Of a stretch of DNA of 64,000 nt, positions 3,332 through 25,448 are shown piece after piece. Under the pieces are notes generated by a model that saw only the letters and a program-made list of their open reading frames with translations, searched no databases and was not told the origin of the DNA. This DNA comes from Deltaproteobacteria bacterium (GTDB lineage Bacteria > Desulfobacterota > Binatia > UTPRO1): assembly GCA_020848745.1 (NCBI GenBank), contig JADLHM010000110.1, forward strand, positions 138,688 through 202,687, read 5' to 3'. The translations under genes were made by a program, and so were the position numbers. Within the stretch, counting starts at the first letter, position 1; each line of letters starts with the position of its first letter.

Positions 3332-3898
3332 GTGAGCGGCGAGGAAACCTCGGACGAGATCCTGATGGCGGCATACCAGGCCGGAAACGAAGCGGCGTTC
3401 AGCGAGCTCTTCGCGCGCCACTCGGGGAGCGTCTACGGCTTCCTCGTGCGGCGGGTGGGCGATCGCGCGCTCGCCGACGATCTCTATCAGGAGGCGTTCC
3501 TCAGGCTGCACCGCGCCCGCGCCACCTACGACTCGCGGCGCCCCTTCCGGGCCTGGCTCTTCGGCATCGTCCACAACCTCGTGACCGACGCGTACCGGAG
3601 CCGCGTCCGCGCGCCCGAGATGGTCGCCGACGACGCCGACGAGCGTCGCACCGACATCCCGTCGCCCGAGCGCGTCGCCGCCGCCCGCGAGACCGCCGCG
3701 AGCCTCCAAGAGGCGCTCGCGGGGCTGGCGCCCGACGAGGCGACCGCCCTCATCCTCGCGCGGGTCGAGGGCCTCGACTACGACGAGATCGGCGGCGTGC
3801 TCGGTCGCTCGGCCGCGGCGGCCAAGCAGCTCGCGTATCGCGCCTTGAAGCGCGTGCGCGCGGCGATGGCGAACCGTGGTCACGAGGAGGAGCCGTGA
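3332..3898 (+). CDS. ECF-type RNA polymerase sigma factor
   Basis: A 188-residue group IV sigma factor. Region 2 is clear (ADDLYQEAFLRLHRAR, then RRPFRAWLFGIVHNLVTDAYR) and region 4 follows after an acidic linker (LAPDEATALILARVEGLDYDEIG and the recognition helix region SAAAAKQLAYRALKRVR). The GTG start at 3332 is preferred to an in-frame ATG at 3254 because an AGGGACGAGG ribosome site sits just before it and the extra 26 residues are Arg-rich and family-atypical. The stop overlaps the start of the next gene as GTGA, the usual arrangement of an ECF sigma with its anti-sigma factor. The regulon is unknown. Confidence 0.92.
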   Translation: MSGEETSDEILMAAYQAGNEAAFSELFARHSGSVYGFLVRRVGDRALADDLYQEAFLRLHRARATYDSRRPFRAWLFGIVHNLVTDAYRSRVRAPEMVADDADERRTDIPSPERVAAARETAASLQEALAGLAPDEATALILARVEGLDYDEIGGVLGRSAAAAKQLAYRALKRVRAAMANRGHEEEP

Positions 3899-5562: not shown

Positions 5563-6282
5563 GTGAGGGAAGCGGGGCGGGTGGCGCTCGAAGCCGTCGA
5601 CCTCGTCCGCCGTCATCGCCAGGGCGACGTGGTCGTGCCCGCGCTGCGCGGCGTGTCGCTCACGGTCGCCCGCGGCGAGCTCGTCGCCGTCGTCGGTCCG
5701 AGCGGCTCGGGGAAGTCGACGCTCCTGCACCTGCTCGCGGGGGTCGACGTGCCCGACGCCGGGCGGATCGTGGTCGCGGGCACCGCGCTACACGCCATGT
5801 CGGAGGACGCGCGCGCCGTGCTCCGGCGCCGCGTGATCGGCCTCGTCTTCCAGGCGTTCAACCTGGTACCGCTCCTGAGCGCGCTCGAGAACGTCGCGCT
5901 GCCGCTCCTGCTCGACGGGGAGCCGCCGCGTCGCGCGCGCGCCCGTGCGCTCGACGCGCTCGCCGGCGTCGGTCTCGCGGAGCGCGCGGCGGAGACGCCG
6001 GACCGGTTGTCGGGCGGCGAGGCGCAGCGCGTGGCGGTGGCGCGCGCGCTCGTCGCGGAGCCGCGCCTCGTGCTCGCGGACGAGCCGACCGGCAACCTCG
6101 ACGCCAAGAGCGCCGACGTGGTGCTGGCGCTTCTTCGAGGCGCGGCCGCCGGAGGAACGGCGATCGTGCTCGTCACCCACGATGCGCGCGCGGCCGCATG
6201 CGGAGATCGCGTGGTCCGTCTCGTCGAGGGCAGGATCGCGTCCGAGGTCGAGGAGCGCGGATGCGCGCGCGCCGCGTCGTGA
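5563..6282 (+). CDS. ABC transporter ATP-binding protein, LolD/MacB type (cluster exporter ATPase)
   Basis: A 239-residue ATPase of the family that powers FtsX-type permeases. Walker [10 protein letters not shown] is near residue 45, the Q-loop is VFQAFNLVP, the signature LSGGEAQRVAVARAL is near 149, Walker [13 protein letters not shown] is near 168 and the H-loop is VTHD. The GTG start at 5563 puts the protein in register with family N-termini. It overlaps the permease start by 22 bases. As the first gene of the cluster it probably drives export of the NRPS product or extraction of a lipidated intermediate from the inner membrane. The family alone does not fix the substrate. Confidence 0.93.
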   Translation: MREAGRVALEAVDLVRRHRQGDVVVPALRGVSLTVARGELVAVVGPSGSGKSTLLHLLAGVDVPDAGRIVVAGTALHAMSEDARAVLRRRVIGLVFQAFNLVPLLSALENVALPLLLDGEPPRRARARALDALAGVGLAERAAETPDRLSGGEAQRVAVARALVAEPRLVLADEPTGNLDAKSADVVLALLRGAAAGGTAIVLVTHDARAAACGDRVVRLVEGRIASEVEERGCARAAS

Positions 6283-8877: not shown

Positions 8878-10893
8878 ATGAGGAGCATGCGGAGGAGCGA
8901 CGCGCCGGACGCGCGTCCTGGAGACGCGACGTTGGTCGACGTGCTGTGTCGGCGAGCCGCCGACGAAGCCGAGCGACCGGCCTGCACGTTCTTGCACGAC
9001 GGCGAGATCGACGAGGAAACGATCACGTACGGCGGCCTCGATGCCCGCGCGCGCCGCATCGCGGTGGCGCTCGGGTGCGACGCCTCGCGCGCGCCCGTGC
9101 TGCTGCTGTTCGAGCCGGGATTGGATTTCGTGGCGGCGTTCCTCGGGTGCCTCTACGCGGGCGTCGTCGCGGTGCCGGTGTATCCACCCGAAGGTCGCGA
9201 TCCCGAGGGCGGTGCGGCGCGCATCCGGCGCGTCGCGGCGGACGCCGGGGCGCGGCGCGTGGTGACGACGCGCGCGCTCGACCGCGCCCTCGCGCGCTCG
9301 ATCCGGTCGGAGCTCGACGAGGCGCGGTCGCGCATCCTCGTGGACGAGCTCTCGATCGGAACGGAGGCGGCCTGGCGTCCTCCGGGGATCGGCGGCGGGG
9401 ACGTCGCGTTCCTGCAGTACACGTCGGGGTCGACCGCCACGCCGCGCGGCGTGATGGTGACGCACGCGAACCTGATGGCCCACGGGTCGCGAGTGGCCGA
9501 CGTGCTCGGGCTCGACGCCGAAGCCGTCGCGGTCAGCTGGTTGCCCGTGTACCACGACATGGGGCTCGTCGGGACGCTCCTGATCCCGCTGCAGATCGGC
9601 TTCCGCTCCGTGCAGATGGCGCCGCGCGCGTTCCTCGAGCGGCCCGGGCGATGGCTCCGCGCGATCACGCGTCATCGCGGCACGCTGAGCCCGGCTCCCA
9701 ATTTCGCGTACGACCTGGCCGTTCGGAGGACCACGCCGGAGGAGCGCCGCGAGCTCGATCTCGGCACGTGGCGGGCGGCCATGAACGGGGCCGAGCCGAT
9801 ACGGGCCGAAACGGTCGAGCGCTTCGTCGCCGCCTTCGCGCCGTGCGGGTTCCGGCGCGAGGCGCTCGTTCCCTGCTACGGCCTCGCGGAGGCGACGCTG
9901 ATGGTCGCCGGCGGGCCGGCGGGGGAGGGCCCCGTGCGGCTCGCGGTCGATGGAGCGGCGCTCGACGACGCCCGGGTGGTCGTCGTTCCCGCGGAGGAAC
10001 GCGGCGCCCGCGTGCTGGTGGGGTCGGGTCGCGTCATGCCCGACGTCGCGCTGCGGATCGTCCATGCCGCAAGCGGCTCCCCGACGCGGGCCGACGAGAT
10101 CGGAGAGATCCGTGTCGCGGGGCCGACGATCGCGGTCGGCTACTGGCGCCGGCCGGCGGAAACGGCGGCCGCCTTCGAGAATCCCCCCTGCGGGCCGCGC
10201 CGTCTGCGCACCGGCGACCTCGGGTTCGTCCACGACGGCGTGCTGTTCGTGACCGGGCGGTGCAAGGATCTGATCGTCGTCCGCGGACGCAACCACCATC
10301 CCCACGACTTGGAGGACGTGGCGGCGGGTGCGCATCCCGCGCTTCGTCCCGGCGGCGGCGCGGCGTTCGCGTGCGACGGCGCCGACGGCGAGGCGGTCGT
10401 GGTCGTGCACGAGGTCGAGGCCGACGACGCCGCGACGTTGCGCGCCGTGGCGGCGGCGATCCGGGAGGCGATCGCGCGCGTCCACGGGCTCGTCGTGGCG
10501 CGCCTGGTGCTGATCGCACCGCGCACGCTCCCGAAGACGACGAGCGGCAAGGTGCGCCGGAGCGCGTGTCGCGCGGCGCTCGCGGCGGGACGGCTCGTCG
10601 TCCGCTACGACACGTCGGAGCACGCGGCGCCCGCCGGAGAGAGGCGGGACACGACCGATGTCGCGGCGATCGAGGCCTGCCTGCGTGCGCTCGTCGCCGG
10701 CGTGCGCGGCCTTCCGCCCGAGGCGGTGCATCGCGACGCGGCACTCGCCGCCCTCGGCGTCGATTCCGCCGAAGCCGCGCATGTCGCCGCGGCGCTCGAG
10801 GCGCGGCTCGGCCGGCGCGTTCCGCTCGCGTTGCTGCTCGAGCAGCCGACGATCGGCGCCGTCGCGGCGGCGCTCGGGGAGGTGCGGGCATGA
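8878..10893 (+). CDS. Fatty acyl-AMP ligase (FAAL) fused to a carrier domain; lipo-initiation enzyme
   Basis: A 671-residue protein that should activate a fatty acid as acyl-AMP and load it on its own carrier domain to start a lipopeptide. The adenylation part has FAAL-typical motifs LQYTSGSTATPRGVMVTHAN (about 180-200), SWLPVYHDMGLVGTLL, APNFAYDL, NGAEP, YGLAEATL, RTGDLGF and KDLIVVRGRNHHPHDLE, with the Lys of TSGKVRR near the C-terminal subdomain end. The carrier domain ends the protein, with Ser630 in LGVDSAEA as the expected phosphopantetheine site. AAAGGAG stands before the ATG. Its stop overlaps the NRPS start as ATGA. Chain length of the fatty acid cannot be read from the sequence. Confidence 0.93.
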   Translation: MRSMRRSDAPDARPGDATLVDVLCRRAADEAERPACTFLHDGEIDEETITYGGLDARARRIAVALGCDASRAPVLLLFEPGLDFVAAFLGCLYAGVVAVPVYPPEGRDPEGGAARIRRVAADAGARRVVTTRALDRALARSIRSELDEARSRILVDELSIGTEAAWRPPGIGGGDVAFLQYTSGSTATPRGVMVTHANLMAHGSRVADVLGLDAEAVAVSWLPVYHDMGLVGTLLIPLQIGFRSVQMAPRAFLERPGRWLRAITRHRGTLSPAPNFAYDLAVRRTTPEERRELDLGTWRAAMNGAEPIRAETVERFVAAFAPCGFRREALVPCYGLAEATLMVAGGPAGEGPVRLAVDGAALDDARVVVVPAEERGARVLVGSGRVMPDVALRIVHAASGSPTRADEIGEIRVAGPTIAVGYWRRPAETAAAFENPPCGPRRLRTGDLGFVHDGVLFVTGRCKDLIVVRGRNHHPHDLEDVAAGAHPALRPGGGAAFACDGADGEAVVVVHEVEADDAATLRAVAAAIREAIARVHGLVVARLVLIAPRTLPKTTSGKVRRSACRAALAAGRLVVRYDTSEHAAPAGERRDTTDVAAIEACLRALVAGVRGLPPEAVHRDAALAALGVDSAEAAHVAAALEARLGRRVPLALLLEQPTIGAVAAALGEVRA

Positions 10894-13800
10894 CGGCCGC
10901 CGCCGATGCCTGGTACGACGCGCTCGCCGATCGCGGCGGGCTCACGCGCCGCCAGCTGCTCGTGTGGACGGGAGACCGCGTCGCCGGCGACGCACCCGTC
11001 TTCGTCGAGGCCGCGCGATGGCATCTCGATGGCACGCTCGATGCCGGAGGGCTGGCGCGCGCGTTCGCCGTGACGGTCGCGAGCGCCGATGCCCTGCGGA
11101 CGACGATCGGCGAGATCGAAGGCTGGCCCGTGTCCCGGACGTCCTCAGAGGACCGACCGGCGCTCGAGATCGTGGACCTCGCCGGGCACGCGGCGCCGCA
11201 GCGGGCGCTCGACGACCTCGCGCAGGCGAGCATCGCCGCCTGTGCCGTCGGGAAGGTCCTGGTGGTTCCCGTCCTGGCGCGGCTCGCGTGGGATCGCCAC
11301 GTCCTCCTACTGGCGCAGCACCAGATGGTGTCCGATGCCTGGTCGTTCGGACTCCTGCATCGGCGCCTGGAGGATGCATACGGGCGCCGCGCGCAGGCGC
11401 CGGACCCCGGTTCGGCGAACGGCTGGCCGCAGTTCGCCGAGTACGTGGCGTTCGAGCGCGCGTATCGGAGGTCGGCCGCGGTCGCCGAGGCGCGCCGCTA
11501 CTGGGAGAGCGTCCGTGCGGGCGGGCGGCCGACGGGCGAGTCGGCGTCGCTCGGGCGGGACGCGACCCGCGTGCGGCGGATCGTCGTTCCGCTCGGCACG
11601 ATGCGATCGGCCGCGGTGCGGCGCGTCGCGACCGAGCAGGCGTCCGCGGACGTCGGGCTCTTCGTGTTCTTCGCCGCGGTCGTGGCGGCTCACCTCCACC
11701 GCACGCTCGGCGGCGGCGACGTCGTGCTCGACGTGCCGTTCGCCAATCGGCCGTCGGCGCGGTTCAAGGAGACGCTCGGCACGTTCATGAACGTCTGCCC
11801 GGTGCGCGTGGAGGTCGCGGCGCGCGACCGGTTCCGCGACCTGCGCGCGCGGCTCGCGGCGGCGACCTGGGAAGCCGCGCGTCACCAGACGTTCACGGGG
11901 TGCGGAGGCGGCGTGCCGCAAGCGTACGACGTGCTCGTGAACGTCCACCGTCCGGCGGTCGCGGCGGGGTGCTTCGGCGGTTGCGCGATGCGCGTCGAGT
12001 GGCTTCCTCCGACGCACCGCTTCGGGGCTGCCGCGGTGGCGGTCCACGATTTCGGCGCGACGGGGGAGCTCACCCTCGTCGTCGATCTGAACGAGGGCGC
12101 CTTCTCGGCGGGCAGCCGCGCGGCGTTCGCGGCATCGCTCTTGCGGCTCGTCGACGAGCAGCTTGCCGGCGTGGACTGCCGCCTGGCCGACGCCGATCGC
12201 CGGGGAGGATCGGCGAGGACGTCGGCGGCGGCGAAGGTCGGCGCGCCCGCGTCGCGGGACGCGACCGTGTGGTCGGGCTTCGTCGCGCGGGCGCATTCGG
12301 CCCCGGATGCGGTTGCGGTGCGCTCGGGCGATGCGACGGTGACCTACGGGGATCTCTTGCGTCAGGCGGCGGCCGCGGCGAGTCGCCTCACGGCGGCCGG
12401 GGCCGGGCGCGACACGGTGGTCGCGGTCTGGGGGGCGCGGGGGCCGCATTGGCTCCGCACGCTCCTCGGCGTTCTTGCCTCCGGCGCCGTCTATCTGCCG
12501 CTCGATCCGAGCTGGCCCCTGGCGCGCGTCGCCGAGGTGCTGCGGCGGAGCGGAGCGCGGCTGCTCGTCGTCGACGGGGCGCCGTCCGACGTGCCGTGGC
12601 GCCTGGCGGGGGCGAGCGCCGCCTGGACGACGGTCGCGATCGACGCGCCGGCCGACGTGTCATCGGCGGCGGTGCCGCCGGGACCGGCGGCGGGCGACGT
12701 CGCCTACGTGCTCTACACCTCGGGGTCGACGGGCGCGCCCAAGGGGGCGCTCGTGGAGCACGCCGGACTCCGCAACCACCTCGACGCCAAGATCGCGCTC
12801 CTCGGGCTCGCGCGCGGTGACCGCGTCGCGCAGAGCGCGAGCGCCGGCTTCGACGTGTCCCTCTGGCAATGCCTCGCACCGCTCGTCGCCGGCGCGGAGG
12901 TCGACATCCTGGCCGACGACGTCGCGCGCGCGCCGGCGACGCTCGCGCGCGTGGCGACGGCGCGGCGGGTCACCGTGCTGGAGGTCGTGCCGACCGTGCT
13001 CCGGGTCCTGCTCGACGCGGAGGAGGACGGGGCCGGCGGCGCGGGCGAATCGTCGCTCGCGTGCCTGCGGTTCCTCGTCGTGACCGGCGAGGCGCTGGCA
13101 CCGGAGCTCTGCCGCCGGTGGTTCGCGCGACGTCCGTCGGTTCCGCTCGTGAACGCCTACGGGCCGACCGAGTGCGCCGACGACGTCACGCATCACGTGC
13201 TGCGCGCGGCGCCGCCGCCCGACGCGATCTCGGTCCCGATCGGCCGCCCGATTCCCGGGATGTCGGTCTACGTGCTCGATACGGCGTTGCGACCGGTGCC
13301 GGACGGAGAACCGGGAGAGCTCTGCGTCGCCGGGGTCGGCGTGGCGCGCGGCTATCTCGGCGACGCGGCGCGGAGCGCGGCGGCGTTCGTGACCCGTCCG
13401 CTCGGTCCCGCCGGGGAAGACGTCCGCGTGTATCGCACGGGCGACCGCGGCCGGCGCCTCCCCGACGGGACGTTCGCCTGGCTCGGGCGGCTCGACGCGC
13501 AGGTGAAGATCCGCGGCATGCGCGTCGAGCCGGCGGAGGTCGAGGCGACGCTCGGGGTGCATCCGGACGTCCGGCAAGCGGTGGTTCTCGCGCGCGGGGA
13601 CGAGGCGGCACGGAGACTCGTGGCCTACGTCGTCCTGGCGAACGCGGGCGGGAAGGACGAGGGCGCGCCCCGCGCCGCCGCCGCCGAGCTGGCGCGCGTC
13701 CGCGAGTGGGGGCGACTCTGGGACGATACCTATGCGCGCGAATCACCGGGGGCGGACGACGCGGCGTTCGATGCCGCCGGCTGGCGCAGCCGCTACACGC

Positions 13801-15449
13801 GTCGGCCGATCCCCGCGGCGGAGATGCGCGAGTGGCTCGACGGCACCGTGGACCGCGTGCGGGCGCTCGCGCCCCGGAGCGTGCTCGAGATCGGCTGCGG
13901 CTCCGGCATGGTCCTCGCGCGTCTCGCGCCCGCGTGCGCGCGCTGGCTCGGGGTCGATCTCTCGGCGGCGGCCGTGGACGCGGTGCGCCGCCGCCACCTC
14001 ACGGGCGGCCGCCTGCCGCACGTCGCCGTCACGCGCGCGGCGGCGCACGAGATCGTGATTCCTCCCGGCTTTCGTCCCGACGTGGTGCTCCTGAACTCGG
14101 TGGTGCAGTACTTTCCGAGCCTCGCGTATCTGCATGCCGTGCTCGCCGCCGCCTGGACGATGCTCGACGAAGACGGCACGATCTTCGTCGGCGACGTGCG
14201 TTCGCTGCCGCTCGCCCGGACGCTCCACACGAGCGTCGAGCTCGCACGCGCCGGCGCCGCATGCACGGCCGGCGAGGTGCGCGCGCGGATCGAGCGCAGC
14301 CTCGGACGCGAGCCCGAGCTCCTGATCGACCCCGCGTTCTTCGCGGCGCTCGCGCGCGCCCATGGCGGGGCGGTGGACGTGCAACTGAAGCGCGGACGAG
14401 CGCACAACGAGCTGACCCGCTTCCGTTACGACGTGACGTGGCGCCGCGGGCGGAGCGCGGCCGGGGCCGGATCGGAGGACGTGGTGGCGTGGTCCGGCGC
14501 TGGTCCGACGCTCGCCGAGCTGCGGCAGCGGCTCGCCGCGGCTCCCGACGCCACGATCGTTCTCCACGGGGTACCGAATCCCCGGCTGCAACGCGAGCTG
14601 CTCGCGGTCGGGCTGCTCGCCGCGGCGAGCGACGCGACCACGATCGGGGAGCTACGGGACGAAGTCGCGGCGCGTCCGCTCGCGCCGGGTCTCGATCCCG
14701 AGGCGCTCTGGACGTCGGCCATCGGGGCGAGCCACGATCTCGCGATCGGCTGGTCGCCGGCGGGGCTGGATCGGTACGACGCGCGTGTGCGGCCGCGGTG
14801 GTGCGGCGCGCGGCGCGATGGCGATCGGCCGGACGGGTGTGTCGGCGGCTCCACGGTCGCCGCGTCGGCGTCCGTGCCCGACGATGGGGCGGCACACGCC
14901 AACGATCCCGCCCGCGTGGCGACCAGTGCGGCGCGGGTCGAGGCGCTGCGCGCATTCCTGCGCGCGCGGCTCCCGGACGCGATGATGCCGGCGGCGTTCG
15001 TCGTCGTGCCGGAGGTCCCCCTCACGGCGAACGGCAAGGTCGATCATGCGGCGCTCGCGGCGCACGGAGAGGGCGGTGCGCTCGGGGCGGACGATGCGGC
15101 GCCGCTGACGCCGCTCGAGCGGACGGTCGCCGCGATCTGGGCGCGCCTCCTCGGCGTCTCCGAGGTCGGGCGCGACGACGACTTCTTCGCGCTCGGCGGG
15201 GATTCGCTCCTGGTGTACCGCGTGCTCCGGGCGCTGCGCGCCGAGGTCGGCATCGAGCTCGACCTGGAGCGCTTCCTCGTGCGGCCGACGGTGGCCGGTG
15301 CCGCGTCGGCGATCGCGGCCGCCGCCTTCGATGGCCTCGATGCCGCAGAGGCCGACGCGCTCCTCGCCGACGTCGAGGCGCTGCCGGAGGACCAGGCGGC
15401 CGCACCGCGAGCAGGCGGCGATGCGGCCGGGGAGGGCGCCGATGCGTGA
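10890..15449 (+). CDS. NRPS module C-A-nMT-T (predicted N-methyl-diaminopropionate module)
   Basis: A 1519-residue NRPS. The condensation domain (about 20-430) has HQMVSDA at 144-150 where HHxxxDG is expected, so the second, catalytic His is Gln145. The A domain (about 450-1385) has TSGSTGAPKG near 610, FDVSLWQ with D655 and W659, NAYGPTECADD, RTGDR and the A10 Lys1383 in LTANGKVD. A methyltransferase is inserted before A10: VLEIGCGSGMV at 998-1008, SVVQYFPSLAYL, IFVGDVRSLPL and ELTRFRYDVTW, all standard for NRPS N-methyltransferases. The carrier site is Ser1439 in LGGDSLL. By manual alignment the ten-residue pocket reads D-V-W-E-V-T-A-D-D-K. No thioesterase. ATG 10890 overlaps the acyl-ligase stop. 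Confidence 0.93.
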   Translation: MTAAADAWYDALADRGGLTRRQLLVWTGDRVAGDAPVFVEAARWHLDGTLDAGGLARAFAVTVASADALRTTIGEIEGWPVSRTSSEDRPALEIVDLAGHAAPQRALDDLAQASIAACAVGKVLVVPVLARLAWDRHVLLLAQHQMVSDAWSFGLLHRRLEDAYGRRAQAPDPGSANGWPQFAEYVAFERAYRRSAAVAEARRYWESVRAGGRPTGESASLGRDATRVRRIVVPLGTMRSAAVRRVATEQASADVGLFVFFAAVVAAHLHRTLGGGDVVLDVPFANRPSARFKETLGTFMNVCPVRVEVAARDRFRDLRARLAAATWEAARHQTFTGCGGGVPQAYDVLVNVHRPAVAAGCFGGCAMRVEWLPPTHRFGAAAVAVHDFGATGELTLVVDLNEGAFSAGSRAAFAASLLRLVDEQLAGVDCRLADADRRGGSARTSAAAKVGAPASRDATVWSGFVARAHSAPDAVAVRSGDATVTYGDLLRQAAAAASRLTAAGAGRDTVVAVWGARGPHWLRTLLGVLASGAVYLPLDPSWPLARVAEVLRRSGARLLVVDGAPSDVPWRLAGASAAWTTVAIDAPADVSSAAVPPGPAAGDVAYVLYTSGSTGAPKGALVEHAGLRNHLDAKIALLGLARGDRVAQSASAGFDVSLWQCLAPLVAGAEVDILADDVARAPATLARVATARRVTVLEVVPTVLRVLLDAEEDGAGGAGESSLACLRFLVVTGEALAPELCRRWFARRPSVPLVNAYGPTECADDVTHHVLRAAPPPDAISVPIGRPIPGMSVYVLDTALRPVPDGEPGELCVAGVGVARGYLGDAARSAAAFVTRPLGPAGEDVRVYRTGDRGRRLPDGTFAWLGRLDAQVKIRGMRVEPAEVEATLGVHPDVRQAVVLARGDEAARRLVAYVVLANAGGKDEGAPRAAAAELARVREWGRLWDDTYARESPGADDAAFDAAGWRSRYTRRPIPAAEMREWLDGTVDRVRALAPRSVLEIGCGSGMVLARLAPACARWLGVDLSAAAVDAVRRRHLTGGRLPHVAVTRAAAHEIVIPPGFRPDVVLLNSVVQYFPSLAYLHAVLAAAWTMLDEDGTIFVGDVRSLPLARTLHTSVELARAGAACTAGEVRARIERSLGREPELLIDPAFFAALARAHGGAVDVQLKRGRAHNELTRFRYDVTWRRGRSAAGAGSEDVVAWSGAGPTLAELRQRLAAAPDATIVLHGVPNPRLQRELLAVGLLAAASDATTIGELRDEVAARPLAPGLDPEALWTSAIGASHDLAIGWSPAGLDRYDARVRPRWCGARRDGDRPDGCVGGSTVAASASVPDDGAAHANDPARVATSAARVEALRAFLRARLPDAMMPAAFVVVPEVPLTANGKVDHAALAAHGEGGALGADDAAPLTPLERTVAAIWARLLGVSEVGRDDDFFALGGDSLLVYRVLRALRAEVGIELDLERFLVRPTVAGAASAIAAAAFDGLDAAEADALLADVEALPEDQAAAPRAGGDAAGEGADA

Positions 15450-18400
15450 CCGGGGTGCGCGGCTCGGGGCGCTGTCCACGGAAAAACAGGCGCTCCTCCT
15501 CCGCCGGCTCACCGCGCAGGCGGCCGGGGTGTCGGCTCTCGCGCCCGTGCCTCGCGGCGCGGGGGTCAACGTCTTCCGGGCGTCGTTCGCGCAGGAGCGG
15601 CTCTGGTTCCTGGAGCAGGTGGCGGCAGGGAGCGCCGCGTACAACGTGGCCGGCGCCTTCGACGCGCACGGCCGCCTCGACCTCGGCGCCCTACGGACGA
15701 GCCTCGCGGCGGTGATCGCGCGCCACGAGAGCTTCCGTACGACCTTCGTGACCATGGACGCCCGGCCGATGCAGGTCATCTCGCCGGTGGCGCCGGTCGC
15801 GCTGGCGGTGCGCGATGTGCGCGGCGTGAGCGAGCCGGGATCGGCGCTCCGGGTGGAGGTCCAGCGCGAGGTCGAGCGTCCATTCGATCCGAGCCGTGGA
15901 CCGCTGCTGCGCCTGCTGGTGCTCGCGCTCGGGACCGAACGACACGTCGTCGTGCTCACGATGCACCATCTGATCGCCGACGCGTGGTCGGTCGGCATCC
16001 TCGTGCGGGAGCTCTCGGCGCTCTATCGCGCCGCCGTGCGGGGTGAAGGCCTCGCGCTCGACGCTCCCGCGCTGCAGTACGCCGACTACGCCGAATGGCA
16101 GCGCCGCGATGCCGGGAAGCGATGGGGTGCCTCCGCGACCTACTGGCGGCGGCAGCTCGAAGGCGCGCCGTACCCCGTCGTCGCCGCCGGGGACCGGCTC
16201 GCCTTCCGGGGGGCGGCGGTCGGCTGCGATCTCGGAGCCGGAGTGACCGAGGGCCTCCGGTCGCTCGCGCGCACGTCGGGCGTGACGGCCTTCGCCGTCG
16301 CGCTCGCGGCGTGGAAGGTCGTCGTGGCGCGGGCGGCGGCGCTCGACGACGTCACCGTCCTCTCGCCGGTCGCCAATCGCGAGCGCTCCGAGTTCGCGGC
16401 GATCATCGGCTTCTTCGTGAACCTGGTCGCGCTCCGCACGCGGCTCGATGACGATCCGTCGGTCGCGGAGCTCGTACGGCGCGTGGGGGGCGTCGTGCGC
16501 GACGCCCTCCGCCACCAAGCGCTACCGTTCGAGCTGGTGCTCGGCGAGCTCGGCGTCGACCGCACGCTCGCGCGGCCGCCGCTCAGTCCGTTCGCGTTCG
16601 CGTTGGAGCGTCCGGTCGACGATGCGATCGACCTCCCCGACGTCCGGCTCACCGGATGGCCACTCGAGACCCGTACGAGCCGGACGGACCTGGCGCTGAT
16701 CCTGGTCGAGCGGGAGGCTCCGGCGCAGTGGAGCGCGCGCCTCGAGTACGACCGTGGGCTCCACGATGCCGAGGGGGCGCGCGGGCTGCTCGCCGACTTT
16801 CGGACCTGCCTTGCCGGGTTCGGGGCGGATCCGACGCGCCGGATCTCGGAGCTGCTCGCGCGGGGGGCGCTCCCGCCGCCGACGGTCGCGGATCCGGCGA
16901 CGGTCTGGGGACGTTTCCTCGTGCAAGCGGCGACGAGCCCCCATGCCGTCGCGGTGCGCGCGGCCGCGCGTGTCGTCACCTACGAGGGGTTGCGGGAGCG
17001 GGCGCTCGCGCTCGCGGCGCGGCTCGGCGGTGCCGGCATCGATCGCGGTGACGTGGTGGCCTTCGCAGGCGCGCGCGGTCCGGCATGGGTCGGCGCGCTG
17101 CTCGGCATCTGGGGTGCCGGTGGGGTGTATCTGCCGCTCGATCCGCGATGGCCGACGGCGCGCGTGCGCGACGTGCTCGAGCGGAGCGGCGCGCGGGCGG
17201 TGCTTTGCGACGGTGCGATCCCGGAACCGTCCCTGGACGGCTCCGGTCGGAAGCTGATCCGCCTCGACGCGGTGGCGGCGCGCGACCCGGACGCGTCGGG
17301 CGGGGCGGTGCCCGGTCCACGTCGGGGCGACGTCGCCTACGTGCTCTACACCTCGGGCTCCACCGGCGTGCCGAAGGGGGCCCTCATCGAGCACGCCGGG
17401 CTCGTGAATCACCTCGACGCGAAGGTCGCGCTCCTCGGACTCGCCGCCGGGGACCGGGTCGCGCAGACCGCGCCGACGACCTTCGACGTGTCGCTCTGGC
17501 AGTGCCTCGCGCCGCTGCTCGTGGGGGCCGAGGTCGTGGTGCTCGACGACGCCGCGGCCACGGATCCCGCCGCACTGCCGGCCGTGGTCGCGCGCTACGA
17601 CATCACGGTGCTCGAGCTCGTGCCGAGCGTCCTGCAGCTCGTGATCGGGGCGGTCGAGGCCGGGGAGACGCCGCTCGCCGGTCTTCGCTGGCTGCTCGTC
17701 ACCGGGGAGGCGTTGTCGCCGGCGCTGTGCCGCCGATGGCTCGCCCGCCATCCGGCGATTCCGCTCGTGAACGCGTACGGACCGACGGAATGCGCCGACG
17801 ACGTCACGCACCACGTCGTCCGGACGGCGCCTCCGGCGGACGCGGCGCGTGTTCCGATCGGCGCGCCGATCCCGGGGATGTCCGTGTTCATCCTCGACGA
17901 GCGGCTGGTGCCGGTCGCACCCGGGGACGTCGGTGAGATCTGCGTCAGCGGCATCGGAGTGGGGCGGGGGTATTACGACGACCCCGCGCGTACGGCGGCG
18001 GCGTTCGTCGAGCCGACGGGACCGGCCGCCGTGGCGTTGCCGCGGTTCTATCGCACCGGCGACCTCGGCCGGCGTCTTTCCGACGGAACGTTCGAGTGGC
18101 TCGGGCGGCTCGATGCCCAGGTGAAGCTCGGCGGGGTGCGGGTCGAGCCCGAGGAAGTGGAGGCGGTGCTCACGATGCATCCGGCGGTGCGGCGCGCCGC
18201 CGTGGTGGCGATGCCGGCCGACGCGCCGTCGCGCCTCGTGGCGCACGTCGAGGCCGATGCGGGTCCGGAAGATGCGCTCGCGGCCCGCCTCCGCGACTGG
18301 GCGGCCGAGCGCCTGCCCGCGGCCATGGTGCCGGCCGTCGTCGCCGTGCGCGCCGCGCTGCCGCTGACGGCGCACGGCAAGGTCGACCGGCGCGCGCTCG

Positions 18401-20043
18401 CCCGCGAGACGCCGAACGCGACGAGTCCACGCGCGGATGCGCCCGCCCTTCCACCGGCCGCGCCGGAGACGCCGACCGAGCGACTGCTCGCCGACCTCTG
18501 GAGGCAGATTCTCGGCGTCGAGGTGCGGGCCGCGAGCGACGGGTTCTTCGCCCTCGGCGGCGACTCGCTCGCCGCCCTCCGGCTGGTCGCAGCGGCCCGG
18601 CGCCACGGGCTCGTCCTGACGCCGCACCAGGTCTTCGAGAACCCGACGCTCGCCGCGCTCGCAGGCGTCGCGGTCTCCGCCCCCCCGCCGGCGGAGCAGG
18701 GCATCGTCGTGGGCGACGTCGAGCCGACGCCGATCCAGCGGATGTTCCTTGCCGCCGATCTCCCGCGTCCCGATCACTACAACATGGCGATGCTGCTCGA
18801 GATCGACGGCGGCCTCGAGCCGACGTCGCTGGCGATCGCCGTCGAGCACCTCGTGCGCCACCACGATGCGCTGCGCTTGCGCCTGCGCCGCGACGGGGGG
18901 CGGCCGCGGCTCCTGATCGCCGGCCTCGAAGGGCCGGTGCCGTATGCGCATGTCGATCTCGCCGAGAGCGACCCGCGCGCGGCGGCGGCGGCGATCGAAG
19001 CCGCGGCCCCGAAGGCGCAGGCGAGCTTGGACCTCGAGCGCGGGCCGATCCTGCGCGTGCTGTCCTTCGATCTCGGGCCGGACCGATCCGGCCGGCTGCT
19101 CGTCGTCGTCCATCACCTCGCCTGCGACGCGGCGTCGTGGCCCATCCTGCTCGAGGATCTCGCCGCCGTGTATGCGCAGGTCGAGGAGGGCGCGCCGATC
19201 GTTCTCCCCGCCAAGACGACGTCCTACCGCGCCTGGGCGGCGCGCCTCGCGGCGCGCGCGCGGAGCGAGGCGCCGCGCGACGAGGCGGCCTTCTGGGCCG
19301 ATCAGCGCGTCGCCGCGGGCGCACGTCTGCCCCGGGTGCGCGCGGTCGCGCATCCGGCCGTGGCCGACGTCGCGGTGCACACCGTCGTGCTCGAGGCACC
19401 CGCGAGCGGATGCCTCGCCGCCGTGCTCGCGCGCTCGGGCGCCACCATGGAGACGGCGCTCGTGACCGCGGTTGCGATGGTGGTCGCGGCGGCCGGCGGC
19501 GACGACCGCGTGCCGCTCTACCTGGAACGCCACGGACGGGAGGACGCGATCGGCGAGGTCGACGTCTCGCGGACGGTCGGTTGGTTCACGGCCGTCTTTC
19601 CGCTGTGCGTGCGCGTCGCCGCGAGCCGGTGTCCGGCGGACACGCTCGAGGCGGTCGCGCGCCGGCTCCGGGCGGTGCCCGCCGGCGGCATCGGCTGGGG
19701 GCTCGCCGTGTTCGGCCCCGCCGCCGGCGACGATGCGGCCCGCGACCTCGGCGGTGCGCGCCCGGAGGTCAGCTGCAACTACCTCGGGCGGATCGATCCG
19801 CCGCGGAGCCTCGGCTGGCGCATCGCGCCGGAGTCCACCGGTCCGGAGGTCGGTCCGGGTGGCACACGTCCGACGGCGCTCGACGTGGTCGCCCACGTCG
19901 CGGCGGATCGGTTGCACGTCGCGTGGCACTATGACGCGGTGGCGTACGAGGGCGCCGCGATCGCGGCGCTCGCGGCACGGGCGCTCGACGTGCTCCGTGC
20001 GCTCGCGAGCGGCGCGATCGGAATGGACGGGGAGCCCGTATGA
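15442..20043 (+). CDS. NRPS module C-A-T-E (predicted D-diaminopropionate module)
   Basis: A 1533-residue NRPS starting at ATG 15442 inside the previous gene (8-base overlap). The C domain has an intact HHLIADA (H175, H176, D180). The A domain has TSGSTGVPKG near 640, FDVSLWQ with D682 and W686, NAYGPTECADD, RTGDLGR and Lys980 in LTAHGKVD. Its pocket by manual alignment is D-V-W-E-L-T-A-D-D-K. The carrier site is Ser1042 in LGGDSLA, the form common before E domains. The last domain is an epimerase rather than another C domain: HHLACDA (1224-1230), ERHGRE, VSRTVGWFTAVFP and EVSCNYLGR. No release domain follows, so the D-residue chain needs another enzyme or module for release. Confidence 0.92.
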   Translation: MRDRGARLGALSTEKQALLLRRLTAQAAGVSALAPVPRGAGVNVFRASFAQERLWFLEQVAAGSAAYNVAGAFDAHGRLDLGALRTSLAAVIARHESFRTTFVTMDARPMQVISPVAPVALAVRDVRGVSEPGSALRVEVQREVERPFDPSRGPLLRLLVLALGTERHVVVLTMHHLIADAWSVGILVRELSALYRAAVRGEGLALDAPALQYADYAEWQRRDAGKRWGASATYWRRQLEGAPYPVVAAGDRLAFRGAAVGCDLGAGVTEGLRSLARTSGVTAFAVALAAWKVVVARAAALDDVTVLSPVANRERSEFAAIIGFFVNLVALRTRLDDDPSVAELVRRVGGVVRDALRHQALPFELVLGELGVDRTLARPPLSPFAFALERPVDDAIDLPDVRLTGWPLETRTSRTDLALILVEREAPAQWSARLEYDRGLHDAEGARGLLADFRTCLAGFGADPTRRISELLARGALPPPTVADPATVWGRFLVQAATSPHAVAVRAAARVVTYEGLRERALALAARLGGAGIDRGDVVAFAGARGPAWVGALLGIWGAGGVYLPLDPRWPTARVRDVLERSGARAVLCDGAIPEPSLDGSGRKLIRLDAVAARDPDASGGAVPGPRRGDVAYVLYTSGSTGVPKGALIEHAGLVNHLDAKVALLGLAAGDRVAQTAPTTFDVSLWQCLAPLLVGAEVVVLDDAAATDPAALPAVVARYDITVLELVPSVLQLVIGAVEAGETPLAGLRWLLVTGEALSPALCRRWLARHPAIPLVNAYGPTECADDVTHHVVRTAPPADAARVPIGAPIPGMSVFILDERLVPVAPGDVGEICVSGIGVGRGYYDDPARTAAAFVEPTGPAAVALPRFYRTGDLGRRLSDGTFEWLGRLDAQVKLGGVRVEPEEVEAVLTMHPAVRRAAVVAMPADAPSRLVAHVEADAGPEDALAARLRDWAAERLPAAMVPAVVAVRAALPLTAHGKVDRRALARETPNATSPRADAPALPPAAPETPTERLLADLWRQILGVEVRAASDGFFALGGDSLAALRLVAAARRHGLVLTPHQVFENPTLAALAGVAVSAPPPAEQGIVVGDVEPTPIQRMFLAADLPRPDHYNMAMLLEIDGGLEPTSLAIAVEHLVRHHDALRLRLRRDGGRPRLLIAGLEGPVPYAHVDLAESDPRAAAAAIEAAAPKAQASLDLERGPILRVLSFDLGPDRSGRLLVVVHHLACDAASWPILLEDLAAVYAQVEEGAPIVLPAKTTSYRAWAARLAARARSEAPRDEAAFWADQRVAAGARLPRVRAVAHPAVADVAVHTVVLEAPASGCLAAVLARSGATMETALVTAVAMVVAAAGGDDRVPLYLERHGREDAIGEVDVSRTVGWFTAVFPLCVRVAASRCPADTLEAVARRLRAVPAGGIGWGLAVFGPAAGDDAARDLGGARPEVSCNYLGRIDPPRSLGWRIAPESTGPEVGPGGTRPTALDVVAHVAADRLHVAWHYDAVAYEGAAIAALAARALDVLRALASGAIGMDGEPV

Positions 20044-21146
20044 CGGAAGGCATTCTCGCGGCGATCGGCCGCACCCCGCTCGTCGCGCTGCGCCGGCTCG
20101 TCTCCGAGGCGCCGTTCCGGATCTTCGCGAAGCTCGAGGCCTGCAACCCCGGCGGCAGCATCAAGGATCGCGCGGCGCTCGGGCTCCTCGAGGGGGCGCG
20201 GCGCGCCGGGCGCATCCGCCCCGGAACCGTCGTGGTCGAGTCGAGCTCCGGCAACATGGGGATCGGTCTCGCGCAGGCGTGCGCGGTGCTCGGGCTCCGC
20301 TTCGTCTGCGTCGTGGACGTGCGCACGACGGCGCAGAACATCGCGATCATGCGTGCCTACGGCGCGGAGATCGAGGTCGTGGATACGCCGGACCCGAACG
20401 GCGGCGGCTTCCTGCGCGCGCGGATCGCACGCGTCCGGGCGCTCGTCGACCGCCTGCCCGACGCGTTCTGGCCCGACCAGTACGGCAACGTGGACAACGC
20501 CCTCGCGCATCGTCGGACGATGCACGAGATCGTGACCGCGCTCGACGGCAGGCTCGACGTGCTCTTCTGTCCGACCAGCACGTGCGGGACGATCCGCGGC
20601 TGCGCGGAGTACGCGCGCGAGCACGGCCTCGCGACGACCATCGTCGCGGTCGACGCGGTCGGCAGCGTGATCTTCGGCCCCGCGGGCGCGAGCCCCGACA
20701 TGGCGGCGCCCGTACGCTTGATCCCTGGTCATGGCGCGGCCCTGCGGCCGGCGCTCTTCCGCGACGACGTCGCCGACGCGTGCGTGCACGTCTCCGACCT
20801 GGAGTGTGTGACGGGGTGTCGCCGGCTCGTCGCCCGGGAGGGGATTCTCGCGGGCGGCTCGTCCGGCGCCGCGGTGATGGCGATCGAGCGCCTTCGCGAT
20901 CGCATCGCGGGCGACGCGACGGTCGTGGCGATCTTCCCGGACCGCGGTGAGCGGTACCTCGACACCATCTATTGCGACGCGTGGGTCGAGCGGCACTTCG
21001 GTGTGCTGCCGGCGTCCGAGGCAGGAGCGCTCGGGGATCCCATGGCGGCGCATGCGGCGGCGCCGACCGGACGACGACGCCCCGTGGCGCTGCGCCCGCC
21101 CGAGCGTGCGGCGGCCGGGATCCGGGCTGCGGCGGGAACGACGTGA
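20040..21146 (+). CDS. sbnA: SbnA-like PLP enzyme for 2,3-diaminopropionate biosynthesis
   Basis: A 368-residue fold-type II PLP enzyme of the cysteine-synthase superfamily. Schiff-base Lys42 lies in NPGGSIKDRAAL, the substrate loop is ESSSGNMGIGL and the phosphate loop is PTSTCGTIRG. The SbnA group condenses O-phospho-L-serine with L-glutamate to give N-(1-amino-1-carboxyethyl)glutamate, the precursor of L-2,3-diaminopropionate. Ordinary cysteine synthases instead show TSGNTG in the loop. The assignment is strengthened by the SbnB-like gene coupled directly downstream (GTGA overlap) and the NRPS coupled directly upstream (ATGA overlap). The C-terminal ~30 residues are Ala/Arg-rich and probably disordered. 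Confidence 0.9.
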   Translation: MTEGILAAIGRTPLVALRRLVSEAPFRIFAKLEACNPGGSIKDRAALGLLEGARRAGRIRPGTVVVESSSGNMGIGLAQACAVLGLRFVCVVDVRTTAQNIAIMRAYGAEIEVVDTPDPNGGGFLRARIARVRALVDRLPDAFWPDQYGNVDNALAHRRTMHEIVTALDGRLDVLFCPTSTCGTIRGCAEYAREHGLATTIVAVDAVGSVIFGPAGASPDMAAPVRLIPGHGAALRPALFRDDVADACVHVSDLECVTGCRRLVAREGILAGGSSGAAVMAIERLRDRIAGDATVVAIFPDRGERYLDTIYCDAWVERHFGVLPASEAGALGDPMAAHAAAPTGRRRPVALRPPERAAAGIRAAAGTT

Positions 21147-22150
21147 GCACGGGGGGCGACATCCTGATCGTGCCGGCCGCCGACGTCGCCGGGATCCTCG
21201 AGGGTGAGGCTGCGACCCTCATGGCGATCGTCGCCGCGGCGTATGCGGCCCATCGCCGCGGCGAGACCGTCGTGCCGCGCTCGTGCTTCCTCCGATTCCC
21301 CGGTGGACGCAATCGCGCGATCGCGCTGCCGGCGTATCTCGGCGGCGAGGTCGGGGTTGCGGGGATCAAATGGATCGCATCGTTCCCCGCAAACCTCGCG
21401 TGGGGGCAGGCGCGCGCCTCGGGGCTCGTCGTGCTCAACTCGCCCGCCACCGGCCGGCCGTACGCGGTGATCGAGGGCGCGCTCGTGAGCGCACAGCGCA
21501 CGGCGGCGAGCGCCGCCCTGGCCGCGCAGGCGCTGCACGCGGGCCTTCCGCCCGTGCGGGTTGGGCTCCTCGGGTGCGGCGCGATCAACTTCGAGACGCT
21601 GCGCTTTCTCCTCGCGGTGTGGCCGGGCATCACGCAGGTCCTCCTGACCGACCTGAGCGCGGCGCGCGCGGCGGCGTTCGCGGCGCGTGCGCGCGCGCGC
21701 TTTCCGCGGGTCACGTGCGAGATCGCGAGCGATTGGCGCATGCTGCTCGCCGACTGCCCGCTCGTCTCGATCGCGACGACCGCGACGACGCCCTACATCG
21801 ACGCGTTGCCGCGGGGCGCGTTGCGTACGATCGTGCATCTCTCGCTCCGCGACCTCGCGGCGGAGGTGGTGCTGGCCGCCGACAACGTCGTCGACGACGC
21901 GGATCACGTCTGTCGTGCGGAAACGTCGCTGCATCTCGCCGCGCGCGCGACCCGCGGGCGCGCGTTCATTCGCTGTACGCTCGCCGACGTGCTCGCGGGA
22001 ATCGCCGCGCCGAAACGGACCGATGACTCGTGCACCGTCTTCAGCCCGTTCGGGCTCGGGATCCTCGACATCGCGGTCGCGAATTTCGTATGGGAGCGCG
22101 CAGAGGCGTGCGGCAAAGGGACGCGACTCCCCTTCGCGAGCCCCGCATGA
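21143..22150 (+). CDS. sbnB: SbnB-like dehydrogenase (ornithine cyclodeaminase family) releasing 2,3-diaminopropionate
   Basis: A 335-residue member of the ornithine cyclodeaminase/mu-crystallin family. The SbnB branch oxidatively splits the SbnA product with NAD to yield L-2,3-diaminopropionate and 2-oxoglutarate. Seen here: the N-terminal substrate region with GIKWIASFPANLAWG, the central SAQRTAASAALAA and the Rossmann loop VGLLGCGAINFETL (about 135-150). The GTG start at 21143 overlaps the SbnA stop and is preferred over in-frame starts further upstream, which would extend far into SbnA. The next gene starts in its stop codon (ATGA). Supply of Dap to the two NRPS A domains is the obvious role. 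Confidence 0.9.
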   Translation: MSTGGDILIVPAADVAGILEGEAATLMAIVAAAYAAHRRGETVVPRSCFLRFPGGRNRAIALPAYLGGEVGVAGIKWIASFPANLAWGQARASGLVVLNSPATGRPYAVIEGALVSAQRTAASAALAAQALHAGLPPVRVGLLGCGAINFETLRFLLAVWPGITQVLLTDLSAARAAAFAARARARFPRVTCEIASDWRMLLADCPLVSIATTATTPYIDALPRGALRTIVHLSLRDLAAEVVLAADNVVDDADHVCRAETSLHLAARATRGRAFIRCTLADVLAGIAAPKRTDDSCTVFSPFGLGILDIAVANFVWERAEACGKGTRLPFASPA

Positions 22151-23880
22151 GCACGCCGCTCGACGGAGGGTGCATGCCGCGCAGTGTGGAGCCGTTGGCC
22201 GTGGCGACGGTCGGTGTGTTGCTGTGGCTGGTCGCGGCGACCGGGCCGGCGACGGCGGTCGCTGCGGGCGACACCGTCGACCGCCGGCCGCGGCGCGAGG
22301 ACCACGGCGCGCTCGTGGTGCTCGACGTCTACGGGACCTACGAGGAGATGGGACGGCAGCAGGTCGCGCTCCTCGGCGACGAGGCGCGCGCCGTGCGCGA
22401 CCTCTACGCCGACCGATGGAGCGGGCTGGTGCGGTCGCAGGGCGTGCTCGGCCGCTTCGTCGACGCCATCGTGTTCCCGGTGTGGACCGGGTTCGGGCGG
22501 TGGCGTGAAGACAGCGGGTTCTACGACGAAGCGGCGGGGATGGCGCGCGCGCTCGGCGCCGCGGGTGCGGCGGACGGCATGCGGCTCCTCTACGGCGGGG
22601 TCTTCGGCGGCGGGTCGACGGTGTTCGCGGCGACGCGCGGCGCGACCGTCGACGGCCGCGCCCTCATCGGCCGGAACGTCGACTGGTCGGACGACGGCGG
22701 CCGCCGCCGGCCCGTCGTCACGCGCTACCACCCCGTGAACGGTGATCTGCCGCACCTCACCGCCTCGTGGCCGCTCGTGATCGTGCCGATCGTCGGCGTC
22801 AACGCGGCGGGGCTCGCGATCTCGATCAACTTCTTCGACGCCGACGTCATGATGGGGCTTGGCTTCCCCCGGCTTCTCTATCGGCGCGTGCTGCAGCGCG
22901 CACGCACGGTGGAGGAAGCGCTCGCGCTCCTCGCCGACGACGGCAATCGCGGCGGCGCCGGCATGCTGGTGCTCGCCGACGCCGAGGGGGCGCTGGCGCT
23001 CGCGGAGTGCACGGCGAAGCACTGCGCAGCGCTGCGGCCGGGCGAGGACTGGCTCGCCCACAGCAACCACGCGCGCACGCCCGAGATGCGCGCGCACGAC
23101 GAGGGGCGGACGGCCGACTCCGACCGACGGCTCGCCGCGATGGAGGCCGCGGTGCGGGGGCGGCTCGGAGCGATCGATCCCGGGGCGGCGGCGGCGATCC
23201 TGCGCGACCGCTCGAACACGGCGTTCATCAACGATTCCACGGTGGCGAACCTGCGCGTCCTGAACGCCGTCGTCGTCGATCCGCGGGCGCGGCTCGTGTG
23301 GCACGGTACGACCCAGCAGCCGTTGGCGCCGTTCGGCGCGTTCCTGCCGCTCGCGGTCGACGGGGACGCGCCCGGGGCGGCGGCGCCGATCGCCGCCGAT
23401 CCGCGGCTCGCCGGTCCGGTGCTCGCGCGCGAGCGCGAGGTGGTGGCCGGGATGCGGCAGGCGCTCCGGCTCTTCGAGGGCGGGCGCGTCGGCGACGCGG
23501 GCGCGATCTGGGACCGCTTCGCCGGCGAGCCGGCGACGGGCCTCGAGCCGCATCGACTCGCCTGGGCGCGGGCGCGTGTGCGCTGGGCGACGGGGCGGCT
23601 CGCCGATGCCGACACGCTCCTCGCCACGGCCGACGACGACGGCGCCCCGTTCGAGGTGCGAGCGTACGCGCGGGTCGCACGCGGGCTCGTCGCCGATCGG
23701 CGCGGCGCGCGCGCGGACGCGCTGCGGTGGTACCGGGCGGCGGACGCGTATCTCGCGGCGCATCCCGCGTACGACGCGCCGCTCCTGATCGAGCCGTTGC
23801 GGCGCGCGATCCGGACGGGGCTCGCCGCGCCCGCGACCGCCATGCCGGCGATGCCCGATCTGCAGAACATTCCACGATGA
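22147..23880 (+). CDS. Exported C45/Ntn-hydrolase-like protein with C-terminal helical repeats
   Basis: A 577-residue protein coupled (ATGA) to sbnB. A signal sequence or membrane anchor (about 15-42, ending ATAVAAG) sends it across the inner membrane. Residues about 60-430 resemble the C45 autoproteolytic acyltransferase/hydrolase family: an N-terminal YEEMGRQQ region, then a block with GGGSTVFAAT, TVDGRALIGRNVDW and VGVNAAGLAISINFF. In the family the nucleophile is a Cys in a GCSS-like turn; here the turn is GGST (155-158), so Cys is absent and Ser157 or Thr158 would have to serve. The last ~150 residues look like TPR-type helices. Possible roles: trimming the acyl chain of the exported product, as PvdQ does for pyoverdine, or self-protection. 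Confidence 0.72.
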   Translation: MSTPLDGGCMPRSVEPLAVATVGVLLWLVAATGPATAVAAGDTVDRRPRREDHGALVVLDVYGTYEEMGRQQVALLGDEARAVRDLYADRWSGLVRSQGVLGRFVDAIVFPVWTGFGRWREDSGFYDEAAGMARALGAAGAADGMRLLYGGVFGGGSTVFAATRGATVDGRALIGRNVDWSDDGGRRRPVVTRYHPVNGDLPHLTASWPLVIVPIVGVNAAGLAISINFFDADVMMGLGFPRLLYRRVLQRARTVEEALALLADDGNRGGAGMLVLADAEGALALAECTAKHCAALRPGEDWLAHSNHARTPEMRAHDEGRTADSDRRLAAMEAAVRGRLGAIDPGAAAAILRDRSNTAFINDSTVANLRVLNAVVVDPRARLVWHGTTQQPLAPFGAFLPLAVDGDAPGAAAPIAADPRLAGPVLAREREVVAGMRQALRLFEGGRVGDAGAIWDRFAGEPATGLEPHRLAWARARVRWATGRLADADTLLATADDDGAPFEVRAYARVARGLVADRRGARADALRWYRAADAYLAAHPAYDAPLLIEPLRRAIRTGLAAPATAMPAMPDLQNIPR

Positions 23881-23896: not shown

Positions 23897-24718
23897 ATGA
23901 AGCGTTGGGTGCGAGCGATGGGAGGGGCGGCCGCGGCGGCGGCGATGGCGATCGACGCGTGGGCGGCGCTCGACCCGCGCATACCGATCGATCCCGCAGC
24001 GATCCTCGACGCGCGCCGCCGGCTCTACGCGAGCACGTACACGTGGTCCGACCAGCACCAGATCCTGCGGGTCACCACCTGGGATGCGGCGGCGCGAAGC
24101 CACCAGCGGACCGTCGAGCTCTTCGAGCGTCGCTACGCCGACGGCGCGCGCAAGGTTCTGCTCGGCTTCCTCGCGCCGGACGAGGTGAAGGGGATGGCCG
24201 TGCTCTCGCAGGAGCGCGCCGGCGGGACGCCGGAGCGCTGGCTCTATCTGCCACGGCAGCGCCGGGCCCGGCGGTTCGCCGGCCAGATGCGGGACGAGGG
24301 CATGCTCGGCACCGACCTCACCGCGGCGGAGCTGGATCTCCTGCGCGACTCGCTCGGGTGGAGCGGCGCGGCGGTGCGTCCGACCCTCCACGGCGCGGAG
24401 CGCCTCGGCGACGTCGAGGCGTACGCGCTCGACGTCGTACGGGTCGGGGGATACGAGCGGGTGCGCGTGTGGATCGGCGCCGCCGATCTCGTCCTCCGCC
24501 AACTCGAGCTCTACGGCACGGAGCCGGCCGCGTTGAAACGCATCCGACAGAGCGACGTGCGCTTCGTCGGCCGCGTGCCGATGCCGGGTCGCGTCGAGGT
24601 CGAGAACCCGCGCGCCGGCACCCGATCGCTCTTCGAGCTCGTCGAGGCCGAGGTCGACGCCGGCTTCTCCGACGACGTCTTCAGCCTGCCGCTGCTCGCG
24701 ATGCCGAAGAAGGAATGA
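23897..24718 (+). CDS. LolA-like outer-membrane lipoprotein-sorting family protein
   Basis: A 273-residue periplasmic protein with a signal peptide (about 1-23, ending IDAWA). The body matches the LolA-like fold family often annotated 'outer membrane lipoprotein-sorting protein': YTWSDQHQILRVTTWDA, VLLGFLAPDEVKGMAVL, RWLYLPRQRRARRFAG, an acidic DLTAAELD segment and the C-terminal EVDAGFSDDVFSLPLL. These proteins bind lipid or lipidated cargo in a hydrophobic barrel and often accompany MacB/LolCDE-like or RND exporters. Its place 16 bases after the hydrolase and before the carrier-activating enzyme makes it a candidate periplasmic chaperone for the acylated product. Specific cargo is inferred. 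Confidence 0.8.
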   Translation: MKRWVRAMGGAAAAAAMAIDAWAALDPRIPIDPAAILDARRRLYASTYTWSDQHQILRVTTWDAAARSHQRTVELFERRYADGARKVLLGFLAPDEVKGMAVLSQERAGGTPERWLYLPRQRRARRFAGQMRDEGMLGTDLTAAELDLLRDSLGWSGAAVRPTLHGAERLGDVEAYALDVVRVGGYERVRVWIGAADLVLRQLELYGTEPAALKRIRQSDVRFVGRVPMPGRVEVENPRAGTRSLFELVEAEVDAGFSDDVFSLPLLAMPKKE

Positions 24719-24722
24719 CCGG

Positions 24723-25448
24723 ATGCCCGGCCCGCTGCCCTCCTGGTGCGCGATCGTTCCGACGCCGTTTCCCGACGTCCGCGTTCACCGCCTCGACGTC
24801 GCCGCCGCGCGCGGGGACTACGCGCGCCTCGCGCCGGTCCTCACGAGGCCCGAGCGGGAGCGCGCCGCGCTCTTTCGGGTGAGCGACGACCGCATCCGCT
24901 TCGTCGTGACGCGCGCCGCGCTGCGCCTGCTGCTCGCGGAGGCCGGGCTCGGCCCTCCGGAGGCGCTCGCGATCGTCGCCGACGCGAACGGCAAGCCGGC
25001 GCTCCGGCGCTCGTCGCCGCTCCGCTTCAACGTCGCGCACTCGGGCGAGGTGGCGCTGATCGCGCTTGCCGACGGTCGCGACGTGGGCGTCGACGTCGAG
25101 GTGGTCCGCGCGCGCGACGATCTCCACGGCGTCGCCGCACGCTTCTTCGCGGTCTCGGAGATCGAGGCGCTCGGGCGCCTCGCGGGCGCGGCGTACGCGG
25201 CGGCGTTCCATCGCTGCTGGGCGCGGAAGGAGGCGTGCGTGAAGGCCGCGGGCGCCGGGCTCCGCGCGCCGCTCGCGGCGGTGGTGGTGGGCATCGAGCC
25301 GCGTCCGGGCAGGTGGGCGGCGACGGTGGCGCGCGGCGGAGCGCCACGCGCGTTCGAGCTCGCCGACGTCGCGGCGCGGCCCGGATACGCCGCGGCGGTG
25401 GCGGTCGAGGCGCCGGCCGCACGGGTGGACTCCCCCCAGCGTCCGTAG
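24723..25448 (+). CDS. Sfp-type 4'-phosphopantetheinyl transferase
   Basis: A 241-residue enzyme that would convert the three carrier domains of the cluster (Ser630, Ser1439 and Ser1042 of their proteins) from apo to holo form with coenzyme A. It has the family's motifs: FNVAHSGEVALIALA (about 102-116), GVDVEVV with the Mg-binding Asp and Glu (about 121-127) and the signature CWARKEACVKAAGAGL (about 163-180). It begins 4 bases after the preceding stop and is the last gene of the run, followed by a strong hairpin. Ending the operon with its own PPTase makes the cluster self-sufficient for carrier activation. Confidence 0.93.
   Translation: MPGPLPSWCAIVPTPFPDVRVHRLDVAAARGDYARLAPVLTRPERERAALFRVSDDRIRFVVTRAALRLLLAEAGLGPPEALAIVADANGKPALRRSSPLRFNVAHSGEVALIALADGRDVGVDVEVVRARDDLHGVAARFFAVSEIEALGRLAGAAYAAAFHRCWARKEACVKAAGAGLRAPLAAVVVGIEPRPGRWAATVARGGAPRAFELADVAARPGYAAAVAVEAPAARVDSPQRP

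Follow-up and report, generated by a model that had tools for sequence, protein, structure and literature searches.

The window, by which we mean the whole stretch of 64 000 nucleotides that was analysed, carries a lipopeptide operon whose genes all lie on the forward strand. An ABC transporter ATPase (5563–6282) and an FtsX/MacB-like permease (6198–8852) precede the lipopeptide starter, a FAAL-like acyl-AMP ligase with a carrier protein (8878–10893; AMP-binding, DIP2-like C-terminal and PP-binding domains). Two NRPS genes follow, the first with the domain order C-A-MT-T (10890–15449) and the second with C-A-T and a further condensation-like domain that was read from its motifs as an epimerization domain (15442–20043); no thioesterase was found in this second NRPS. 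Two genes for diaminopropionate synthesis come next, SbnA (20040–21146) matching TIGR03945 and SbnB (21143–22150) matching TIGR03944, both over the cut-off, with the SbnB start placed from a GTGA overlap. The gene under study (22147–23880) is followed by a LolA-like periplasmic carrier (23897–24718; PF17131) and a phosphopantetheinyl transferase (PPTase; 24723–25448). An ECF-type sigma factor and an overlapping second gene, possibly an anti-sigma factor, lie just upstream of the operon (3254–4818) and are kept in genome G001.

The order FAAL-NRPS-NRPS-SbnA-SbnB-C45-LolA-PPTase, in which C45 denotes the gene under study, was conserved in three species of one genus, represented by the window genome, G001 and G002. 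In all three the start of the C45 gene overlaps the stop of sbnB as ATGA, which bears out the translational coupling described in the initial annotation. Condensation domains were detected in only these three of seven related genomes searched, and in each of the three the operon holds the only ones. A tblastn search with the window protein found no C45 neighbour at the other SbnB-like loci of the phylum (L086, L088 and L089).

Several observations bear on the product of the operon. Since the FAAL and carrier protein start the assembly line, the product probably begins with a removable acyl chain. In all three species both adenylation domains (within 10890–20043) have nearly identical motifs at the binding pocket, FDVSLW ... 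NAYGPTECADD, which suggests that the same amino acid, possibly diaminopropionate, is loaded twice; an adenylation-code string read by hand from the motifs had no match in a literature search. The first NRPS of G002 (L009:9572–13083) is about 1 kb shorter and seemingly lacks the methyltransferase domain, which makes it probable that the species differ in their product. The FtsX/MacB-like ABC exporter genes (5563–8852) and the LolA-like carrier gene bracket the NRPS genes, an arrangement suggesting that a lipidated product is moved in the direction of the outer membrane.

The ORF at 22147–23880 begins with ATG at 22147, ends with a stop codon at 23878–23880 and encodes 577 aa, its limits agreeing at both ends with the initial annotation. 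The protein matched the Pfam AAT model (acyl-CoA:6-APA acyltransferase; 62.5 bits against a cut-off of 23.2, 6e-17) and the NCBIfam C45_proenzyme model (NF040521; 133.9 bits against a cut-off of 85, 8e-39). AAT was the sole Pfam match at E ≤0.1, and there was no match to PF01804, the penicillin amidase family to which PvdQ belongs. By its sequence, the protein is a Ser variant within the AAT/C45 homology family, carrying serine where C45, as a cysteine-type MEROPS family, is defined by cysteine. Residues 1–40 (22147–22266) resemble a signal peptide, with a hydrophobic run and then AxA at about residue 40, a pattern that recurs in most orthologues, consistent with the export signal proposed earlier and with an exported, Ser-type member of the family. 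This segment evolves fast (dN/dS >1), and the N-terminal-nucleophile (Ntn) domain, with a dN/dS of 0.17–0.21, is under purifying selection. If the precursor is cut before Ser157, residues 41–156 (22267–22614) would form the alpha chain or propeptide, a boundary predicted from the position of Ser157 and from cleavage of isopenicillin N acyltransferase (IAT) between Gly102 and Cys103 (PMC2692852). Cys288 and Cys293 are invariant in the clade of Ser-bearing orthologues, while other C45 proteins commonly hold another residue there; they possibly form a periplasmic disulfide.

The absence of the catalytic cysteine, reported in the initial annotation from the motif GGST (residues 155–158), held up in an alignment of 38 distinct C45-family proteins, mostly of the same phylum, which comprised the five orthologues and 33 proteins from outside their clade. 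The column of Ser157 (TCG codon at 22615–22617) holds cysteine in 33/33 of the outside proteins and serine in 5/5 orthologues, so the correspondence between GGST and the Cys site is no accident of alignment, and a chance match was rejected. Gly156-Ser157 is kept in all five, serine always following glycine. Thr158, offered earlier as an alternative nucleophile, was rejected because its column is Ser or Thr, adjoining the cysteine, throughout the C45 proteins; Ser157, the other residue proposed, is therefore the positional equivalent of the nucleophile. The catalytic set of IAT consists of Cys103, Asn119, Asp121, Asn246 and Arg268 (PMC13044924). By phmmer alignment, Asn119 and Asp121 correspond to Asn177 and Asp179 (22675–22683) in the GRNVDW landmark (residues 175–180), which is intact as initially claimed, and Asn246 corresponds to Asn307 (23065–23067). 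Arg328 (23128–23130) is the probable equivalent of Arg268, being invariant in 38/38 proteins and lying 21 residues after Asn307 compared with 22 in IAT. All four of these residues are invariant within the Ser clade.

An AlphaFold2 model built from five sequences was used to examine the fold, although its confidence was modest (mean pLDDT 61.5, below 50 around residues 153–166 and low also around 300–372). IAT was the first Foldseek match of this model (2x1d, 1.7e-8), and VIA-align, applied to the same modest-confidence model, aligned 313 residues with IAT 2x1c at Z 23.0 and an rmsd of 3.5, ahead of NAAA (19.6), the 66.3 kDa lysosomal protein (19.2), acid ceramidase (18.9) and cephalosporin acylase (18.1). 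Cephalosporin acylases are Ser-type enzymes. The predicted fold is thus, as had been anticipated, an Ntn (alpha-beta-beta-alpha) fold, with IAT as the closest match, and the non-Ntn fold that the initial annotation had named as a refutation was not borne out. Residues 421–562 (23407–23832) form a helical tail that matched TPR folds at a Z of about 15 in VIA-align, while the Pfam TPR models gave no score on this segment. Many of the Foldseek and VIA matches are TPR proteins that align with the tail alone and are uninformative on function. The initial annotation had considered the tail unusual for the family; this view was not upheld, as several Cys-type C45 proteins (L020, L021, L033, L038 and L039) carry TPR repeats after the AAT domain. 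The tail is a recurrent architecture in the C45 family and is not particular to the gene under study. A TPR-tailed Cys-type C45 protein was also seen in an aryl-polyene-like cluster of two genomes (L054:9387–20000 in G004 and L055:1171–12000 in G005), neighboured by an MMPL exporter, two ketoacyl synthases, a carrier protein, a ketoreductase and an acyl-AMP/CoA ligase-like gene, with a halogenase-like FAD enzyme also present in the L054 cluster.

The five Ser orthologues formed one clade with support of 100/100, on a stem of 1.99 changes per column. The length of this stem, together with the clade-specific loss of other conserved residues, could be taken as the mark of a pseudoenzyme, which without its cysteine no longer undergoes processing and would by now act in binding or as a scaffold by way of its Ntn and TPR parts. 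The lost residues include a glycine at position 210 (Gly in 32/33 other C45 proteins, Leu in the Ser clade) and an arginine at position 331 (Arg in 29/33, Ala in the Ser clade). Moreover, an engineered C103S form of IAT was unprocessed and inactive (PMC2692852), so serine is not freely exchangeable for cysteine in an IAT-type scaffold. Against this, the replacement is always serine, a functional Ntn nucleophile, and never Ala or Gly; it always follows glycine, the remaining catalytic residues are invariant throughout the clade and the Ntn domain is held under purifying selection. Other Ntn enzymes do use a serine nucleophile, as PvdQ does with S268 (PMC10587159). On these grounds we consider a pseudoenzyme unlikely and favour, with good confidence, an active serine enzyme; judged from sequence, the 577-aa protein is probably a working serine variant.

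A search for the class covered 148 genomes, 5 of which carried the Ser clade, so that the clade is rare and patchy there. A search of plasmids for relatives found none, and a scan of a genome collection with short patterns, which would miss many relatives and did miss the one in G486, returned only known relatives and one distant Cys-type protein. The initial annotation had set against its own reading orthologues with cysteine at this site and no relation to NRPS genes. No orthologue with cysteine was found, but two with serine, in G005 (52 %) and in G486 (47 %), a member of another family of the same class, are unrelated to NRPS genes. In both genomes, at 96 and 99 % completeness respectively, condensation domains and homologues of the operon FAAL were absent, and DUF5996 and DUF2332 genes are among the neighbours of these two genes. 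It follows that cysteine did not give way to serine as an adaptation to the NRPS, that the ancestral substrate would have been something else and that the Ser variant has had an NRPS-independent role at some point in its history.

This distribution gives some weight to an active Ser-type enzyme, either an Ntn hydrolase or an acyltransferase, that works on a general periplasmic substrate, such as N-acyl amino acids or lipids; its gene would have been drawn into the NRPS operon, where the enzyme would exchange an acyl group or remove a protecting group other than the starter acyl chain. Two of the five orthologues lie outside an NRPS context, and C45 roles vary, as IAT exchanges acyl groups, AzsT desuccinylates and Tri14 releases its product (PMC10445470). 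However, in 3/3 species of the NRPS genus the gene is a fixed part of the operon, with overlapping start and stop codons, and we regard this alternative as possible but doubtful.

Our preferred role, removal of the starter acyl chain from the FAAL-NRPS product by an exported Ser-type Ntn amidohydrolase in the manner of PvdQ, is put forward tentatively and with somewhat less than even confidence. In this proposal the precursor would cleave its own chain at the Gly156-Ser157 bond. The freed amino group and the hydroxyl of Ser157 would then attack an amide, positioned by Asp179, Asn177 and Arg328, while Asn307 would contribute to the oxyanion hole. Within the genus, the most likely substrate would be the exported FAAL-NRPS product, an N-acylated short peptide containing diaminopropionate, and removal of the starter chain would follow export by the ABC transporter, matching the part that PvdQ plays for pyoverdine. 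An assembly line that opens with a FAAL implies that its product is N-acylated, which makes an exported Ntn amidase an obvious candidate to take off or swap the acyl group, and gene order points to such a role within the operon. The setting resembles that of PvdQ in combining a signal-like N-terminus with an acyl-start NRPS in the same operon. The PvdQ-like acyl removal suggested in the initial annotation is thus plausible by analogy and agrees with the FAAL start and the conserved operon, but the Ser variant is not tied to NRPS chemistry, given G005 and G486. The neighbouring gene for a LolA-like carrier may indicate that the lipid is retained on the product. Alternatively, the enzyme might protect the producer: beyond the cytoplasm it would inactivate, rather than mature, the lipopeptide made by the cell or acylated compounds related to it. 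Exported acylases of the wider Ntn superfamily inactivate acylated antibiotics and signals, MacQ being an example (PMC5566955), but translational coupling to a gene of precursor supply is more usual in biosynthesis, and we think self-protection quite improbable.

In summary, the gene under study encodes a conserved serine variant from an established Ntn family, and the lipopeptide operon around it is likewise conserved. The residue swap itself is solid. The fullest reading, a fixed natural Cys-to-Ser nucleophile switch in the IAT-type (C45) family that yielded an active periplasmic serine enzyme, recruited in one lineage to deacylate an exported diaminopropionate lipopeptide, is offered with low confidence. 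If true, it would represent a PvdQ-like solution arrived at independently from another Ntn family; were the product deacylated, this would be prodrug-style periplasmic maturation of a lipopeptide by a non-PvdQ family in a poorly studied, uncultured lineage. The clade provides a clean natural test of whether an IAT-type nucleophile can go from cysteine to serine and with which companion changes, for example L210 and A331.

Among known systems, IAT (penDE; PDB 2x1c/2x1d) is the nearest by predicted fold, and it shares the glycine before the nucleophile, the equivalents of Asn119, Asp121, Asn246 and Arg268 and action upon an NRPS-derived product. It differs in using Cys103 where the window protein has Ser157, in being peroxisomal, in the inactivity of its C103S form and in lacking the signal peptide and TPR tail. 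The TPR-tailed C45 proteins L020, L021, L033, L038 and L039 share the long C45 architecture with C-terminal TPR repeats, and L020 and L021 also sit in biosynthetic gene clusters, although all five have a Cys nucleophile and fall in clades separate from the Ser clade. By description, AzsT, Tri14 and DobA are likewise C45 proteins of natural-product clusters (azaserine, triacsin and dob), and AzsT and DobA hydrolyse an N-acyl amide, deacylating carrier-bound intermediates (PMC10445470, PMC13061610). Unlike the exported role proposed here, all three work on carrier-bound intermediates, and therefore presumably inside the cell. PvdQ of pyoverdine and GdnD of glidonin, which deacylate NRPS lipopeptides (PMC10587159), are periplasmic Ntn acylases comparable in export, in an acyl-start NRPS product and in the role proposed, and the serine nucleophile of PvdQ parallels the proposed use of Ser157. 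Both are larger proteins (GdnD is 85 kDa) of the penicillin-amidase family, in which the window protein has no Pfam match, and the resemblance to them would be one of analogous function only.
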